Below are positions 18,074-28,784 of a stretch of 64,000 nucleotides of DNA, in pieces. The translations under genes and the position numbers were made by a program. The notes under the pieces were generated by a model that was given only the letters and a program-made list of their open reading frames with translations, had not been told where the DNA came from and did not search any database. The DNA comes from Taiwanofungus camphoratus (Eukaryota > Basidiomycota > Agaricomycetes > Polyporales > Taiwanofungaceae): assembly GCA_003999685.1 (NCBI GenBank), contig CP021227.1, positions 992,001-1,056,000 of the forward strand, in the 5' to 3' direction. Position 1 is the stretch's first letter. Each line of letters begins with the position of its first letter.

Positions 18074-21000
18074 GTCGTCAAACATCTCCGAGGCCTCGAG
18101 TGCATCAACCGCCACCTTCGTCACTGCCCTTGTCTTCAACGCCGCAGTCTTCGGAGCAGAGCTGGGAATATTTACCCTCGTCCGACCTTATTTTCCCGCT
18201 ATCTACCAGCCCCGCTCATATGTCCCCCCAGAAAGGTGAGCTTATCTCCCTCGCAGACCAAAAAGGCGGCCGCTCGCGAGTTTCCTGGCCATTCTGGTCG
18301 TTCCCTGTGCCACATGAATGTTTCCCGGAAGGACTTGGTCTGCGCGTAATACCGTGTGGAAACTGTTCACAATCCCGGAACATCTTTTGTGAGCTCGTGT
18401 TGTCATCTCGCACCTTCTCTGCGTCAGGGAAGGATGCTTGCATACGACGCTTCCAGATCCGGCACAGATGGATGGATGTGACCTGCCTCTCAGCCGAGCT
18501 GTATATGACAGGTTTCGTCACCGATATGTCTGCAGAGACAAAGGTAGGTTCTGATACGGCCTCTTGTCACGGGGGCTACCAGTCCGCCCTTATATTGCCA
18601 CAGAAACAGTCTGCATATTATGCTGCTGAGAGCACATGCCCGTTTGTTGCTCGTTGAGTGCAGACCTACCAAAGAGCCTGCTGTGGATTCCCTGTGGTAG
18701 TACATCAGCTATATGATCCAAGATGCATCTTGAGGATTCCCACCGTGGTTTCCGTGGCATACATGCGGCTTTGGCGGAGTTATGCGTTTTTATGTGCATC
18801 GAGGTTCTTGTCAGAGTTTCAAAGCAATTGGACTGTGCTATGCGGCTCGCCGCTAGCAGTGCAGTAGTTTCCCGTAGCCTTTTTGCAGACCTCATGACCA
18901 TTCTGGTCAGGCCACTGGCGGTCACAGTCTGCCAGAGGAAATCCAAAGTAAGATGGAACCGCCCTGCCATGTGCTCGCGAGCGGCCTACCTGTTTAAGTT
19001 TCTGTACAATGCCACTCTATGCGCCTGTTACTCACCTCTTGTCTCACCTCCAGCCGGCGCTCCCCGCCGCTCTCCCCAAACATTTTCCTCTGGCCGTACG
19101 CTGTGCTCCGCGCGGACTACCGCGACATCAAGCACACGAACGGGCTCGACGCGTACTTCTTCGTGCGCTTCCTGCGCATGATGGCGCGCGTGCTGTTTCC
19201 GACCTGGCTCGTCTCGTGGCTCGTCCTCCTCCCCGTCACGAGCGTCGGCACGAGCGCCGGTCAGAGCGACGGCCTCACGCAGTTCAACTTCGGCAACATC
19301 GGCCCGAACCAGAGCGCACGCTACGCCGCGCACCTGATCCTGGTATGGATATTCACTGGTGAGTGCGCTTGCGGTCCTTGGTACCTAGCGCGTGGGGGTA
19401 TGTGAGAGCTGAGGTGGACCTACGAGTCGATTTAAGCGTTGATCGGGTGCGGGTGAGCCGACAGGGCGGTCTGTCTTGCTTTGTTAGCTCGGCTCACGGA
19501 GAGAATTGCCTTCCGGGTTCTCTTCCGTTCCGAGTCGTATATATGCACGACAGGATTGCCCTTTGTGGCCTTGAGCATAGTTCGGCTTGCGGCTCCAGCC
19601 AATGCGGGCTGCAGAACCATACCGTACCCATGCATATCAAGCTCCCCTTGGCCTATGTATGCGCATATAATCACCTATTCCGACTGCAACGTGAGAGCCT
19701 CGTATTGAGCTTTCGACGGTTTTACCCAATCGTCTACGATTGAGTCCATCGTGCTGAATTTGATCTAGTTTGGCTATGGTGGAACATCGATTATGAAATG
19801 AGCCATTTCGTTTCGGTCCGTCAGCGATGGCTCATGGACCCTGTGAATGCGTCCTCTGCACAAGCCAATACTATCTTGGTCACCGGCGTGCCACAGCGAT
19901 ACCTCACCGAAGCCGCACTCAAAAACGTTTTTGCGTACTTACCCGGTGGGGTACGCAAAGTCTGGCTTAACAGGTTTGCCTCGCCACACTTTCAAAATTC
20001 GGATGTGTGATCTGACTCTGTCTCAGAGACTTGAAAGAGATGCCAGACTTATACGACCACCGCGTTGCGGCGTGCAAGAAGCTCGAGTCCGCAGAGACCG
20101 ATCTCGTTAACACTGCTGTCAAGTTGTACAACAAGGAGCTCAAAAAAGAAGCCAAGAAGGCGAACAAACAAGCCAAGAGAGCTGGAAAATCCAATCGACA
20201 GGATTTCACATACAACGCCGCTGAGGATCCGTGGCACCAGTCGGATCCCAGCATCGCTGACACAGACGACATCATGCTTACAGAGGAGTTCGTCCCGCGC
20301 GACAAGCGCCCGACACATCGCCTCCCACTCTTCTCGTGGATGCCATTCTCGCTGCCTCTTATGGGCAAGAAGGTCGACTCTATCGAGTGGGCGCGCCAGG
20401 AGATCGCCGAGACCAATGCGGCGCTACGCGAGAGCCGCCGCACGCTCGCAAGGGACGTGGCGCGGGCATCGACGATCCCGGCTGCGGACGAGGACAGGCA
20501 AGCAGGGAACAAGCTAAAGCCGGACAAGGACGGCCCGCAGACGTACCCGCCGCTCAACTCTGCGTTCGTGCTATTCGACCAGCAGATTGCCGCCCATTTG
20601 GCGGCACAGACGCTCACGCACCATGGGCCCTACCGCATGGCGCGCAAGTCGATCAACGTCGCGCCCGCAGACGTCATTTGGGGCAACCTGAACATGAACC
20701 CATACGAGGCGCGTGTGCGGACCGCGATCGGCTGGTGTGCGACGATTGGGCTGATCATCCTCTGGGCCTTCCCCGGTAAGTCGCCTTACATGGTTGCGGG
20801 CGTATCGATGATCTAACGTAGACTTTCACCCGATGTACAGTGGCGTTCGTTGGTGCGGTCAGCAATATCCACTCGCTGTGTTTGACGTATGGCTGGCTCC
20901 GGTGGATCTGCAACCTGCCCAGCGTCATTGTGGGAATCATTTCCGGTATCCTCCCGCCGGCGCTGCTCGCGGTCCTCATGATGCTCCTCCCGATCGTGCT

Positions 21001-22455
21001 GCGTCTACTTGCGCGCTTCGAAGGCATGCCCCAGCGGACGGCAATCGAGTTGAGTCTCATGGACCGATTCTTTTTGTTCCAGGTCATCGTGAGTGGCTGT
21101 TCTGCGTCCGTTGATCATTTCGGTCTGTGTTGACATCTAGTGTAGCACTCCTTCCTCATCGTCTCTCTGAGTTCAGGCATTATCGCGGCTTTGCCTTCTC
21201 TACTCAATGACCCGGGCTCAATTCCTACGTTGCTTGCAAATAACCTGCCGAAAGCTTCTACTTTCTTCCTCACGTGGGTTTATATCCTCTGTGACGCGTA
21301 AACTTTTGCTCACTTCATTTATAGTTATATCATTCTTCAAGGGCTATCTGGAACGGCATCAGGTTTCCTCCAAGTCGTGCCTCTTGTTCTATACTACGTG
21401 AAACTGTTCATCCTCGGCAGTACACCGCGCTCAATCTACAAAATCAAGTACACCTTACGTTCCGTCCAGTGGGGCACCACGTTTCCCACAATCACACTCC
21501 TCGTTGTTATCAGTGCGTTTTCCTGCGCTTTTACAGTTACATACTCCTGACACATATTCACTGCCTAGCTGTCGCGTACTCTATCATATCACCAATCATC
21601 AATGGCCTCGCTTTCGCCACCTTCTTCCTTTTCTACCAGATGTGGAAGTATTTATTCCTCTGGCAGCTCGACCAGCCGCGTTCGAGCGAGACTGGCGGGA
21701 GGTTCTTCCCCAAGGCGATTCAGCATGTCTTCGTTGGGATGTACCTCCAACAGATTTGTCTTGCAGCGCTGTTCTTCCTTGCACAGAATGACGCCCACCA
21801 CCCGTCTGCTGTGCCAGAAGGCGCTTTGATGGTCGTTCTGATCGCCTTCACCGTAAGCAAGCCCCTTACCGTCCTTGCTGCAAGTTAGTTGGCTTACATC
21901 GATGTTTGTTTGCTTTCGTAGGCGTTCTTCAACATGATCATCAACAACTCATACGGCCCGCTGATCGAGTATCTCCCTTTGACGCTCGCAGACAAGATGC
22001 AAGCCGTAAATGACGCGAACCGCGACGCGGCAGAGCAGCACTTGAACGACTCTGCATCGGTGCGAAGCATCAGCGTGGAAGAGAAGCGCCGCTCGCAGGC
22101 CATCTCGTCGTCAGAGAACAAGCGTGATGAGAAGGCGCGCACAGCAAACATTGAGGAGGCAGAACGTGGTGAAGCAGGCTCCGTTGGGGAGCAGAGTGTA
22201 GGCGGAGCAGGCGGGACGCTAGAGAGTGATATAAAGGGCGTAGACGAGGAAGCTGGCCCGAAGGACTTCTACCATCCTGCCAGCGTGGAACCACAACCCG
22301 TCATCTGGCTTGCGCGCGATCCACTTGGCCTTGCAAAGGCGGAGGAGGCGGCGATCAGAGAGAAGGGCATCTTGGTATCAATAGAGAACGCGCGTATGGA
22401 TGAGAAGGGGCACGTTGATATCTCAGGCCGTCCGCCAGATGAAGTAGAGCTGTGA
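18074..22455 (+). CDS. CSC1/OSCA/TMEM63-type calcium-permeable stress-gated cation channel (first exon not resolved)
   Basis: Nine phase-consistent exons: 18074-18235, 19054-19358, 19769-19973, 20027-20775, 20841-21088, 21146-21273, 21325-21512, 21569-21852 and 21922-22455, giving at least 933 residues. The N-terminal helix (FVTALVFNAAVFGAELGIF) and YQPRSYVPPE are typical of the RSN1_TM segment. Then come ADYRDIKHTNGLDAYFFVRFLR, a cytosolic RNA-fold-like domain (TGVPQRYLTE) and the channel core, with FVGAVSNIHSL, SLSSGIIAALPSLL and PLVLYYVKLFILGSTPRS. The tail is charged and presumably cytosolic. Family members are osmo- or mechanosensitive cation channels of the plasma membrane or endomembranes. 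Two introns, 818 and 410 bases, are far longer than the other seven (51-65). Confidence 0.9.
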
Positions 22456-22802: not shown

Positions 22803-25800
22803 TTACCAACCTACAGCAGCAGCCTCATTGAGGACTACGATATCATGTGGATCACTGAGATCATGCCCCTCAAGCTCGGCAGCCACTTCGAACTCGGTCA
22901 CATACCGCGAACAATCTCCTAGGTTGCTTGGTAGCGTCCACGTAGCATCCAGAGCGTTGAAACTAGAAGTGTTTTGATTAAGACCGGCCTAAGAGGGTGT
23001 TATCTCAACGTACCCATCCCATTTGACTAGCCACAAAAATCCAGCCGGAGTTTCGCTGCGATCATTGGATAACTCGTTGGGCCTGCGGCCGATGATTCGG
23101 TCCACGAACCATTCATTCGTCTCAGACCCATGCCCCGAATGGTCGCAGTCCGGACGTGCGCACGTCGCACCGAGAACAGTCATTACATGGCGCCGTTCGC
23201 CTGCAAGGTGAAGCAAATCAGGTCAATATAATGGGCGATAGGATACTCAGAGCAGACAAGGACGAGACTTGGGACATACGCTGCTCTCTTCAAAAACACA
23301 AGACATAGGAAAGATAGAAACAGTCAAATATCACAAGCATGAGTAGTAGTTAAATCTTCGAAAAGAAGGGCCAACATACTGGGATACCTCACACACAGGA
23401 CAAATAAACTCCGCGTTCGCTTCGAGGCGTGGATCGCCCGTGGTGAGGCCGACACAGCCAAAATGATACCACGCATCGCAACTGTACGTTCAATATAGCA
23501 GTGTCAAATCCAGGTGTCAAAACGAAACAGCCCATGATATACACACTTGTCGCATTGCACAAACTGCAGATCAACTAGAGTGAGCCGCATAAGCACAACT
23601 AAACATTTTTTACCACTGACCTCACGTTGATACGTAGCGTCTCCGTTGATCTTCTCCGGCCAATTGCATACAAGTGCATCGTCAACGCGTGTTATTACTT
23701 CTGCAAGGCTGGTATCCCCCATCGTATTGTGTGCTGATACCGCGCCCGGAGTTTTCCGCGAACGGCCACGGCGCTTGGGAGACAGACTATTGATATTACG
23801 AATTCCAAGCAAATCTCCTTCCGTCTTGCGTCTTTTCCGAGGCCGGCCTTCGTTCTCGCCTCTCTGCCTGCCCCTGCCGCCGCGTCTTCCTGTACTGCTA
23901 GAATGGTTCTCTATGATTTGAATCCCAGAAGAAGACTGTCGTTCCGAAATGGCAAGCTGGTCCTGGAACTGCAACCTGGTCAGTTCGCGAACCCCTGAGT
24001 CTGACGGGGTGAGGGAAGACATGCTCGAGAGCGAACCAGTCCGCCCACGGAGGGAAGTTGCCCTGAGATTCCCTGGTAGAGGAATACGGACAGGAGAGGA
24101 CCCAGCTGGAGCAACAGCTTTCGTGTCACAAGGGGAGCTTGAATGTAACGAGCCGGGGTGAGACGATCCGACAGCAGTGGAAGACGAAGTGATTGGCAGT
24201 GACAAAGGAGCAATGGTTATGTGAGATGTACTGCTAGATGGTAACCCAGATGATCGGTTAAAAGGACTCGGAGGTCCATGGGCGGATGGTATACGGGAAG
24301 GAGCAGAGACAGGACCACTCTGGCATCCCGCAGGTGTTGTACCACTCAGCAGGGGCTCGGCAGACGTTGAAGATCGTCTTTGCCATGCATGCCGCCCGTC
24401 ATTTTGTGACAAGCTCTCATTATAACATTCCTGACCCAGCAAACCGAAAACATTTGGATCGTCCAAACTAGACTCGGGGTGAACAGCGGGAATCTCATCT
24501 TTGGTGGTGGTAATAGTATCATGTGTTATATCCGTGAGGACCTGGTCACCGATATGGCCTGATTGAGGAATGCCCCTTATCGGAAGTTCACTCACCTGTA
24601 CATATGAAAGCTCTGTGTTGTATGTTGCACGTCACATTCAAATCATTTGTTGAGATGAAAAATTCGACTTACGTGAAGCTGGCGATTCCAGGCTTGAAGA
24701 ATCAGGTGAGTCACTACCTGCAGGAAGTAAAAGAAAGCTGATAAGAAAGGGAAGCGCTTCCATAATGAAGGTAGAATCATACTACTGTCTTCGTGCCGAG
24801 ACCACGTGGCGGGTACCATGGGATCTGAATGAAAAGGGGAGGAGGGAAAGCGAGACTGTAGAGATACGGCTGAATGTCGATTCCACAAGACGTCAAACCC
24901 ATGGACGAAGATGATTCATGGCAACACTACCTTGTTGAAACAGAGGTGGCACTAAGGGTGAACATGATGCGTGCTCAGGTATCCGTGGAAAGTCGTCAAA
25001 GCACGCGTGCTCTGCCTCATCAGCATCTGCGGTTGTAGAGCCATGGCTAGGCGCACAGGAATCAACTGTAGCCTGCAGTGCACCAGTTGATGTTGGAGTA
25101 TGCGCATCAATCGACAATTCTACCAAGGCCATTTGTTGCTCGGGAAGTCGCTCGGCACAAAGCTGCGACTTGTCATGATGTTCCTTTTGCGGCAGTTGAC
25201 CTGGATTCCGCACGAGTGCAAGTAGCTGTGCATTCTCCTCAACGAGCTGCGCCACACGGCTGCGAAACAGAGTGACGACAAATGGCATGTGAGCAAAAGA
25301 TCACTACCGTGAAGACAAGGAGAATAAATGCAAGAGAAGGGGAGGAGCAGAAAGCGACGTACGTTTCCATACTTTCGAACGCGTCGCGCTTCCTTTGCCT
25401 GCTGAGAAATGCAGACGTGCGATGTTTGAGACGGCGTGCCTCCGGCTTACTGAGGCCCGCGACGTTTGGTGGTACAAGGGTTCTTCTGGAGGCACGCTTG
25501 CCCCAACCGTCGACCTTCACGGTACCACGCACATTCGATGGCATCTTTGGTGATACATCAATCGGGCTGTCAAAAGCTGAACGCCAATGTTGCTGAGGCC
25601 CTGAGCGCTTAGGACTCGTCTCGCCGCTGTCAGACAGTTGTGGTCCATAGACCCCCACACCTACGTCCACGTATGCCGAACGACGCGAGTTAAAGCCCAC
25701 ATTACCGATTTGCGGTACATATACGGGGTCTAAGTGGATCGGATCAATCCCTTCATCAAGATCTTAATTACGAAGTTAGCCAACTAACGGAATGAAGACC

Positions 25801-26438
25801 TCGCTCACGACACCTTTTGATAATAGACATGGGCTGGTGTTAATTCCCGTTTCGTGACTGATTACTTCTTTCCCTGACGCTGAGATGAATATCAAATGTG
25901 CATATCTTATGACGAATGGCTCACGTGCGATGTCTCGAACATTTACAGACTCCAAAAGCTCGCGAAGGATACATTCAGTTCTTTCAAGGCGACCTGTCAA
26001 GGCAGCATTCTGATCTGCAGGTGGCGCATTTCCGATCAGACTGCGCAGCTCTTCCACCCGACTGAAGACACATTGCGTGGCCTTGATCTGGAGTATGTGC
26101 GACCGCTCGAGCCACTGAGCAAGCCGGTCTGTCTCGGAGCATGTCTGCTTTTTTATACCCGTTAGCGTTTCCAAAACATTCTGCATCGACGACTCAAGCT
26201 TGTCGAGCCGCTCCACAGTGTGATCTTGCAAGTTGCTCAGCGCAGTTGTCAAAGTGGGGAAGATGTTCTGGTTCTGGTTAGTATCAAGTCGAGATACTGG
26301 ATGTGGAAATGGAACGGCGGCGGGCTCCAATTGATATTGACCACGTTGTATAACATGCGTCGTTGCAGGCGCAGACTGTGACGTTGTGGTTTGGGCGCGA
26401 CTCGACATATTACCGACCTGAGACGCCGTAGGCTGCAT
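22803..26438 (-). CDS. Nuclear protein with coiled coil, bZIP-like region, PHD-type finger and chromodomain
   Basis: Ten phase-checked exons give 938 residues: 25925-26438, 25363-25762, 24931-25259, 24786-24869, 24673-24717, 23621-24612, 23547-23563, 23393-23481, 23014-23200 and 22803-22962. Residues about 60-170 form a charged, probably coiled-coil region. Residues about 281-330 look like a bZIP: basic part RLKHRTSAFLSRQRKRDAFE, then RVAQLVEENAQLLALV with only two to three heptads. A long S/P-rich linker has a basic GRPRKRRKTEG and KRRGRSRK nuclear signal. Around residue 790 a PHD finger shows FVQCDNCDAWYHFGC and FICPVC, but I see only one cysteine where the first zinc pair should be. The C-terminus has a chromodomain (WFVDRIIGRRPNE, FLWLVKWDGFNALDATW). 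It probably binds chromatin and DNA; targets are unknown. An alternative is two adjacent genes, but the splice phases join cleanly. Confidence 0.75.
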
Positions 26439-26832: not shown

Positions 26833-27903
26833 TCATGTTCTATAGATTCTCAGCAGCCGCTGCTCGGTCACAATGCGTGTACGACATAGTGGGCACTCCC
26901 GCGTGCTCTTCATGATGAGGTCGGAGCATGGACGGCATAACGCCAGATGCCTTCGTTAACATCGAAGGTATTAAGCATCCAAGCACGCAAGCAAAACACA
27001 ACCCATACTCACCCGCAGTCAACAATGGCAATGTTCGCCTCTTCGTCCTGGCAAATAACACATAGCCCTGTACGTTCTAGACGGGATGCCATGGCCTCAG
27101 CCTTGGGCGATAATCCTCGGGTAGGTGGAGTTGAACCGGAGGTAGGGGTTTTAGGAGGGGGAGGTGGTATATTCTCGTCCGATCCATCCTCATAGCTCTG
27201 GCTATGAGTTTCGTCAACCTGCATGGTATCACCCTCCGTCGACCTGGTAACCTCTCCGTCTGCATTGCTGCCACCCAGCTCTTGCTCCATCGTGACATCC
27301 TGTTCCTCCCACTCGCTCTCCTGTCTTGTCCTTACCTGCTCTCCCTCCCACCTCATCGCTTCCTCCGCCATCCTCTCTGCTTCTTCCTCCCGTGCATGTC
27401 GTTCCCTTTCCCGCCGCTCCTCCTCCAGCAAGGTCCGCACCTTCGCAACCAGCTCCTCCTTTTCCACCACTAGCCGCGCGTTCACATGATTCTGAAACAA
27501 CACTGCTTTCAGCGTGCCGATCGACAGTGCCGCCAGGCGCTCGTCCGGCATCTGCAACAGTTCATCCAAGGTCGGCACCGGTGGGGATGGAGATGCCATG
27601 CGCGGAGCAGGTGCAGGTGAGGCGGACGCTGCCCGCGGGCGTCCGCGCGCTTGTGCGCTCCCACCGGGCACATTCAGATTCGCGGAGCTCGATGAGGATG
27701 GGTGAGAAAACGGTGGATGCGGAGGGTAACCTGCAGACGGGTACGCCTGCGGGCGAGAGTTGCGTGGTTGAGGTGGGGGCTGACGAGGACGCTGCGGGCG
27801 AGGCGGAGCCTGTCGTTGTTGCCGTTGCCTTCGTGGATCAAGGTCTGGCCGAGGGAAACTGCTCGGGCCCGATGTTGTACGCTGACGGGGCTGATACGGT
27901 GGT

Positions 27904-27938
<35 letters not shown>

Positions 27939-28784
27939 AGGTGGGGGTTGTGTGGAGGGACGGTCGGGACCCATGGCGTCCATCGCACGAGTGAACAGCC
28001 CGCGAGGACGGCCAGATCTACGATTTGGAACGGAGTACTTGCGGTAGTAGTCCTAGAAGTGGGCAATTCATACTGAGTTAGGGCGAAATTCTCGCTGAAA
28101 GATGGCGCCTAGACTTGCCTCATGAGCTGGTAGAAGACACCCATTTCGCCCCTATAATATCTGTCAGTACTTTCCATACAAACGAACACAACAGAAGAGA
28201 TCAAAAAAGTGTTATTAGACAGACTCCCATCCACAGAGTTGCAAAGGGGTGCACAGGGCAATCAACGGACTCACTCTGGCCGAGATTAGAGCGTCAATCA
28301 AGTCGTCCTTCTCAAAAACACCACTAGTTCTGATATTATATGCATTGGCATATTTCTTCAGGCGTGATAACGGTAGCTGCCTCAGATGTCCTTTGCCGCC
28401 CGCAGTGACTACGCTGTAACAATCAGAATCCGTCGCATCGTGCGCATGCGTACGATATATTTGTATCAACTCACTGGTGAGATTATCTATGCAGAACGCA
28501 CAAACGGGGACCACATCGTATCCAGACTCTGTACCGCCGCGTGGCATCAATGCCTGGAAATCCGTACATGAATGACAGTACGAATAGCCTATCAGGATAT
28601 TCGCCACATCACGCTAGATGAGAGACAAAGTTGAGACGCGGCACCCAGACATACCACAATGGTTGCATCTCCTTGATCTTGAAAACAATATGTTGAATTC
28701 CTTGTCGCATTTCCTACAAGATTGCTCATTCATGTGGTATTCTGGCGGTGGGCCACTGAGCAACGGTACACCTCCCGCAGACAT
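26833..28784 (-). CDS. FYVE-like, SAP-like and RING finger E3 ubiquitin ligase
   Basis: Six phase-checked exons give 522 residues: 28655-28784, 28475-28588, 28275-28408, 28119-28151, 27013-28052 and 26833-26950. An N-terminal FYVE-type zinc finger has CRKCDKEF, RRCNHCGYSYCHSC and VCAFC. A SAP-like helix pair follows (LPLSRLKKYANAYNIRTSG), then YYRKYSVPNR. A polyglutamine and proline-rich stretch comes next, then a second short helical segment (LDELLQMPDERLAALS) and an acidic coiled region. The C-terminal C3HC4 RING has LCVICQDEEA, DCGHLALC and ECPLCR. The order matches animal RNF34/rififylin-type ligases, which act at endosomal membranes; the same role here is inference. The fourth intron (28053-28118) appears to use GC-AG ends. 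Confidence 0.88.
27906..27936. repeat. CTG/CAG trinucleotide run, polyglutamine in the RING protein
   Basis: About ten consecutive CTG triplets (CAG on the coding strand) encode an uninterrupted glutamine run inside the proline-rich linker of the FYVE-RING protein. Such runs vary readily in length. Confidence 0.9.

Follow-up and report, generated by a model that had tools for sequence, protein, structure and literature searches.

Does the minus-strand locus at 26438-22803 of the Taiwanofungus camphoratus stretch examined here encode a single protein in which a bZIP, a PHD finger and a chromodomain are joined, or are these domains the products of separate neighbouring genes? The stretch, referred to as the window, is the whole 64-kb piece of DNA that was analysed (C8:992001-1056000) from a genome of 33.2 Mb in 15 contigs, and coordinates are those of the window unless a contig is named. 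A preliminary description had proposed a ten-exon gene linking all three domains in phase. Splicing and translation of these exons reproduced the model base for base, giving 919 codons plus a stop in one open frame that runs from an ATG at 26438 through all ten exons to a stop codon ending at 22803. The nine introns are all GT-AG and range from 51 to 213 bases in length, and their G+C content (0.35-0.48) is on the whole lower than that of the exons (0.43-0.62).

In this model, all of which lies on the minus strand, exon 1 (25925-26438) provides the start codon and a helical, possibly coiled-coil N-terminus. For the N-terminal coiled coil of the preliminary description, AlphaFold, run on the single sequence of exon 1, gave no more than a helical prediction at low confidence (residues 59-164, mean pLDDT 51). 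The bZIP basic region (KPEARRLKHRTSAFLSRQRKR) lies at the end of exon 2 (25363-25762), and exon 3 (24931-25259) carries the short zipper (RVAQLVEENAQLLALV) and a tail beyond it. Exon 4 (24673-24717) contributes 45 bases, and exon 5 (23626-24612) encodes a Ser-rich and Arg/Lys-rich linker followed by the first PHD cysteine, Cys745 (23668-23666). The core of the PHD finger, FVQCDN, falls in the 28 bases of exon 6 (23547-23574) and its remainder (CDAWYHFGCVGL...FICPVC) in exon 7 (23380-23481). A microexon of 8 bases, exon 8 (23280-23287), then puts the PHD finger and the chromodomain in one frame. Exon 9 (23014-23200) encodes a knuckle-like stretch, CARPDCDHSGH, and the first half of the chromodomain, the second half of which is supplied, together with the stop codon, by exon 10 (22803-22962).

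Some borders of the model are ambiguous, namely those of introns 1, 3 and 5. Exon 1 has an alternative end at 25814, and reading through intron 5, before exon 6, likewise keeps the frame open. A gene finder using a flat coding score preferred to extend exon 1 to 25814, to begin exon 2 at 25750 and exon 4 at 24869, and to read intron 5 through; at a higher flat score it also added two exons beyond 22803. Intron 3 (24718-24930, 213 bases) is the critical join between the bZIP half and the PHD half, and may either hold an extra exon or mark the boundary between two genes. A possible exon within it would use an acceptor at 24824 (score 5.76) with donors at 24785 or 24782 (0.92 and 1.81, respectively). 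The order of the domains is left unchanged by the alternative borders, that is, by an exon in intron 3, by the extension of exon 1 to 25814 or by read-through of intron 5. The octamer AGGTAGTG occurs at both ends of intron 3 (24932-24925 and 24719-24712) and resembles a target-site repeat; a search of the genome for intron 3 as a repeated introner returned only intron 3 itself, with no second copy.

The domain assignments were examined by profile searches with Pfam models, and all three of those made from the sequence proved right. A bZIP_1 match was found at 25220-25448 (residues 277-318), interrupted by intron 2 (25362-25260), a PHD match at 23391-23569 (residues 761-798), interrupted by intron 6, and a Chromo match at 22887-23105 (residues 837-892), interrupted by intron 9. 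In the full protein of 919 residues the PHD scored 32.3 bits (cut-off 24), while bZIP_1 at 25.3 (cut-off 27.6) and Chromo at 24.2 (cut-off 25.1) fell narrowly below their cut-offs. As excised pieces each of the three passed (bZIP_1 33.7, PHD 33.6 and Chromo 27.4), including bZIP_1, for which the profile search had been set beforehand as a possible refutation of the model. The unspliced open frames scored only 13.5, 23.7 and 12.7 bits for bZIP_1, PHD and Chromo, respectively. Every domain match therefore improves on splicing, which supports the splices at introns 2, 6 and 9, each of which lies within a domain. Genome-wide searches with the bZIP_1 and PHD families did not list the 26438-22803 locus among their matches, nor did that with the Chromo family among the 150 matches scored of 271 candidates, as would be expected with each of the three domains interrupted by an intron.

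When the bZIP part was used to search the genome, a relative emerged on another contig, with matches at C11:1354910-1355017 (E 7e-6) and C11:1355115-1355252 (E 0.1). Read as three exons, this gene (L044, C11:1354406-1356284) encodes a bZIP protein of 558 residues that scored 33.5 bits against bZIP_1 at full length, as compared with 25.3 here. In a two-sequence comparison, residues 247-352 of the present model were 49% identical to it over 106 residues (E 3e-23), and the intron after the basic region lies at the identical codon and in the identical phase (phase 2) in both genes. On account of this identity and the common intron position, the bZIP is genuine by descent. The best match among solved chains was CREB (E 0.003). 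Similarity to the relative ends on either side of residues 247-352, where the next matches had E values above 4, and no Pfam match to PHD or chromo was found in the C11 protein. One further resemblance, between ALPFLIS in the region of exon 4 and ALPTLLS in the third exon of the relative, was equalled in 16 of 300 shuffles when a hand-chosen piece of 50 residues was compared; with the whole tail, this pairing was no longer the best match and 119 of 300 shuffles did as well.

The bZIP signature is N-x7-R-x9-L, and the invariant Asn of the basic region contacts DNA bases. The present protein reads H-x7-R-x9-M and the C11 relative N-x7-R-x9-M, such that His (KHRTSAFLSRQRKR) stands here where the relative retains Asn (KNRAAAFLSRQRKR). 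Because of this replacement, sequence-specific DNA binding, which the preliminary description had attributed to the protein, is doubtful. Its observation of a short zipper was accurate: three heptads carry Met, Leu and Leu, with Pro at the next heptad position, and the zipper is short both here and in the C11 relative. It is conceivable, at somewhat below even chances, that the bZIP has lost DNA binding altogether, that the duplicated segment serves only for pairing and that the protein effectively acts as a reader through its PHD finger and chromodomain, a view compatible with the others considered below. The His, the zipper terminated by Pro after three heptads, the lower full-length bZIP_1 score and the confinement of detectable similarity to residues 247-352 are all consistent with such a loss. 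Against it, the basic region is intact apart from the change from Asn to His, and the excised piece still reaches its 33.7 bits against bZIP_1.

PHD fingers have eight zinc ligands in a C4HC3 arrangement, seven of which are present here. As had been pointed out from the sequence, the first pair is reduced to one cysteine: Cys745 precedes Asn-Trp-Pro, which stands in place of the second Cys, and the six later ligands (CDNC, H, C and CPVC) are intact. The profile match begins at profile position 11. Among solved chains the nearest were those of the H3 readers DIDO1, BPTF and TAF3, with EBS and SHL also among the matches. We take Tyr757, the Phe of FVQC and the Trp of AWYH to occupy the cage positions of BPTF, the alignment with BPTF itself spanning only the Phe and the Trp and not Tyr757. 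With these aromatic residues in place, the domain would be predicted to read the H3 tail, probably at K4me3.

For the chromodomain the nearest solved chains were Rhino and CDYL, followed by HP1 forms among others. The Trp of EWFV and the Trp and Phe of KWDGF align with Tyr, Trp and Phe of Rhino, and presumably form the aromatic cage. The domain can thus be envisaged as a reader of H3K9me3 or H3K27me3. Between the PHD finger and the chromodomain, the translation of 23130-23162 (minus strand) gives the CARPDCDHSGH stretch, with a C-x4-C-x-H-x2-H spacing; it is a possible zinc knuckle, for which Pfam returned no profile match.

Copies of the individual parts were also sought elsewhere. A genome search with the PHD-chromo part, which covered the best 3 candidates and which distant kin could escape, revealed no second copy; beyond the locus it gave two matches resembling PHD fingers, with E values of 0.014 and 0.033. 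Recent capture of the chromodomain from the many chromodomain-bearing elements of the genome was considered and rejected, as this search at E up to 10 gave only these two other matches. For the N-terminus, the genome yielded no convincing second copy, its two matches having E values of 1.5 and 2.5, and of 12 pattern matches to the PHD-chromo part in viral_contigs none was confirmed.

Whether the domains belong to one transcript depends on the joins between them. Each join was assessed by holding the exon ends fixed and dinucleotide-shuffling the DNA between them, with 500 shuffles at each of three settings. The join inside the PHD finger, exon 5 to exon 7, was equalled or bettered in phase in only 13, 15 and 16 shuffles, and that from exon 1 to exon 2 in 37, 27 and 36, the top path of the latter differing from the earlier model. 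For the critical join from the bZIP to the PHD finger (exon 3 to exon 5), an equal or better in-phase join arose in 106, 105 and 97 of 500 shuffles (19-21%), and for that from the PHD finger to the chromodomain (exon 7 to exon 9) in 130, 136 and 158 (26-32%). Hence, of the earlier statement that the exons are each in phase, the frame itself holds and its value as evidence is weak; likewise the single gene proposed to join all three domains is favoured, with critical joins that shuffled DNA matches in about a fifth to a third of cases.

The PHD-chromo join depends on the 8-base microexon (23287-23280), and it could be argued that this microexon is spurious and that the two domains lie on separate transcripts. 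The frequency with which shuffles matched the join is in keeping with this, as is the ATG at 23183 that opens the chromo frame. However, the microexon of the earlier model was the top path at all three settings and its splice sites scored well, all being positive (donors 4.76 and 4.60, acceptors 4.39 and 5.68). A separate chromo gene would begin about 147 bases after the stop met on reading through exon 7 (ending at 23331) and would encode a protein of only about 109 residues. We thus regard separate PHD and chromo transcripts as improbable.

A more serious rival is that of two adjacent minus-strand genes, in which exons 1-3 would form a divergent bZIP gene ending at the stop at 24893 and exons 4-10 a PHD-chromodomain reader starting at an ATG at 24763 or 24819, the single model then being a chance in-phase join. 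The shuffle frequency of the exon 3 to exon 5 join would fit this, and the C11 relative is itself a bZIP protein devoid of PHD or chromo matches. The ATG at 24763 lies in a favourable start context, with an A at position -3 and a G at +4. However, the product starting there begins MEALPFLISFLLLPAG, which resembles a translated pyrimidine tract ahead of a CTGCAG acceptor (score 6.46). The gap from the stop at 24893 would also be only 129 bases to the ATG at 24763, or 73 to that at 24819, as compared with a minimum of 477 bases between predicted same-strand neighbours in the gene-finder set of 41 genes, a minimum biased upward because that set is incomplete. A start within exon 5 itself, where the earliest in-frame ATG is only at 24022, would not account for the 196 codons without a stop that precede it. 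From base composition the probability of such an open stretch is about 6e-4, and the PHD half is therefore very likely spliced from upstream.

Gene finding was also used to compare the joined and the split structures. A codon model self-trained on the surrounding 264 kb found 41 genes and missed many; it listed 8 genes within the 64-kb window, and the bZIP-PHD-chromo gene was not among them. Six of the ten exons scored below zero (exon 5 at -14.7 and exon 10 at -8.8), the sum being about -23.5, and the model called no gene there at its own start cost. At relaxed start costs a bZIP fragment appeared, and at a cost of 0 the output was two fragments, one for the bZIP (25544-24714) and one for the PHD finger (23722-23183), a separation that accords with two genes. 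In training, the locus was left out of the coding set and included in the background, which biases the model somewhat against a gene there. The silence of the codon model consequently means little, given its yield of just 41 genes from 264 kb and the presence of the locus in its background.

Under the flat coding score the joined parse reached 59.2 and the two-gene parse 55.1, an edge for one gene of 4.1-4.7 units that is small enough to be cited in favour of two. For comparison, a middle intron was barred in those 21 of the 41 genes that scored at least 25, had no fewer than four exons and, flanks included, spanned up to 7 kb; this cost a median of 7.8 units (range 0-14.4), and the edge of 4.1 at the locus lies below that median. 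Fusing 5 pairs of neighbouring genes cost 0-1.5 units. The flat score thus hardly resists the fusion of neighbours, and its preference for one gene is accordingly weak. Taken with the gap, the product of ATG 24763 and the open frame of exon 5, we consider two separate bZIP and PHD-chromodomain genes unlikely, and conclude that all ten exons and their three domains probably form one gene and one transcript.

The single transcript would encode a nuclear regulator, some 920 residues long, whose placement is set by chromatin state through readers of the PHD and chromodomain kind, a reading we hold to be probable; the finer steps of its mechanism are less sure. From a helical N-terminus the protein would continue into a CREB/ATF-type bZIP whose zipper is short, then a long basic linker of low complexity, next a PHD finger of the type that reads H3K4me3 and, last, an HP1/CDY/Rhino-type chromodomain. 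The PHD finger and the chromodomain would select the chromatin state, while the bZIP would mainly dimerise, its contact with DNA being presumably weak or altered because the invariant Asn is His. The protein may in this way join active and silent chromatin or discriminate between them, much as SHL/EBS of plants and EPR-1 of fungi do by means of BAH and PHD. A more elaborate and rather doubtful version is that, in a fungal lineage, a duplicated bZIP was joined to a dual reader made up of a PHD finger and a chromodomain, that zipper pairing and DNA contact became gated jointly by H3K4me3 and H3K9/27me3, and that the change from Asn to His retunes the contact with DNA. If the locus does encode one protein, a bZIP-type dimer and two methyl-lysine readers would be linked directly, with no need of partner proteins, offering a simple route from chromatin state to target gene, and it would become possible to trace how the protein relates to a bZIP retained elsewhere in the genome.

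The marks that such a chromodomain would read can probably be written in this genome, since it contains two preSET_CXC (EZH2-type) matches, at C10:1607052-1607162 and C11:631399-631485, which suggest two EZH2-type genes, and one Pre-SET (Clr4-type) stretch. At least 150 chromodomain matches (150 scored of 271 candidates) occur on many contigs, many of them in open frames of 1300-1780 codons that may belong to chromodomain-bearing Ty3-type retroelements. At C5:367929-368649 a BAH match is followed, 271 bases on and on the same strand, by a PHD match, and this may be an EPR-1-like BAH-PHD gene. Next to the locus, the upstream neighbour on the minus strand (26833-28052) consists of a glutamine-rich open frame and then a RING-type finger piece (zf-C3HC4_3), probably parts of one gene, and the convergent neighbour on the plus strand (predicted span 19019-22455) has RSN1_7TM and PHM7_ext matches of the CSC1/OSCA-like channel type.

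The combination of bZIP, PHD finger and chromodomain was not found reported in a search of open-licence PMC papers by titles and the starts of abstracts, and the closest known systems each share a part of it. In CHD3/4/5 (Mi-2) and similar remodellers a PHD precedes a chromodomain in one chain, as in the present model, which differs in having a single PHD finger and a single chromodomain and no helicase or ATPase match in its 919 residues (Pfam, E up to 1). The BAH-PHD proteins SHL of plants (PMC6013494) and EPR-1 of fungi (PMC7348808) are reported to carry an H3K4me3-type PHD finger next to another domain that recognises a repressive mark. The present model pairs a PHD finger with a second reader as SHL/EBS/EPR-1 do, although the second reader there is a BAH domain and here a chromodomain, with a bZIP added. 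Judged by its sequence the T. camphoratus protein is not a BAH-PHD family member, as Pfam (E up to 1) gave no BAH match anywhere along its 919 residues. Its basic region and short zipper are those of a CREB/ATF-type bZIP, with the difference that His replaces the invariant Asn, and the similarity to the C11 relative does not extend to the rest of the protein. The chromodomain resembles those of HP1, CDYL, Rhino and Clr4 in having aromatics at the expected cage positions; in contrast to CDYL and Rhino, the alignments place about 8-9 extra residues after its first strand, and in contrast to all four it stands at the C-terminus of a bZIP/PHD protein.
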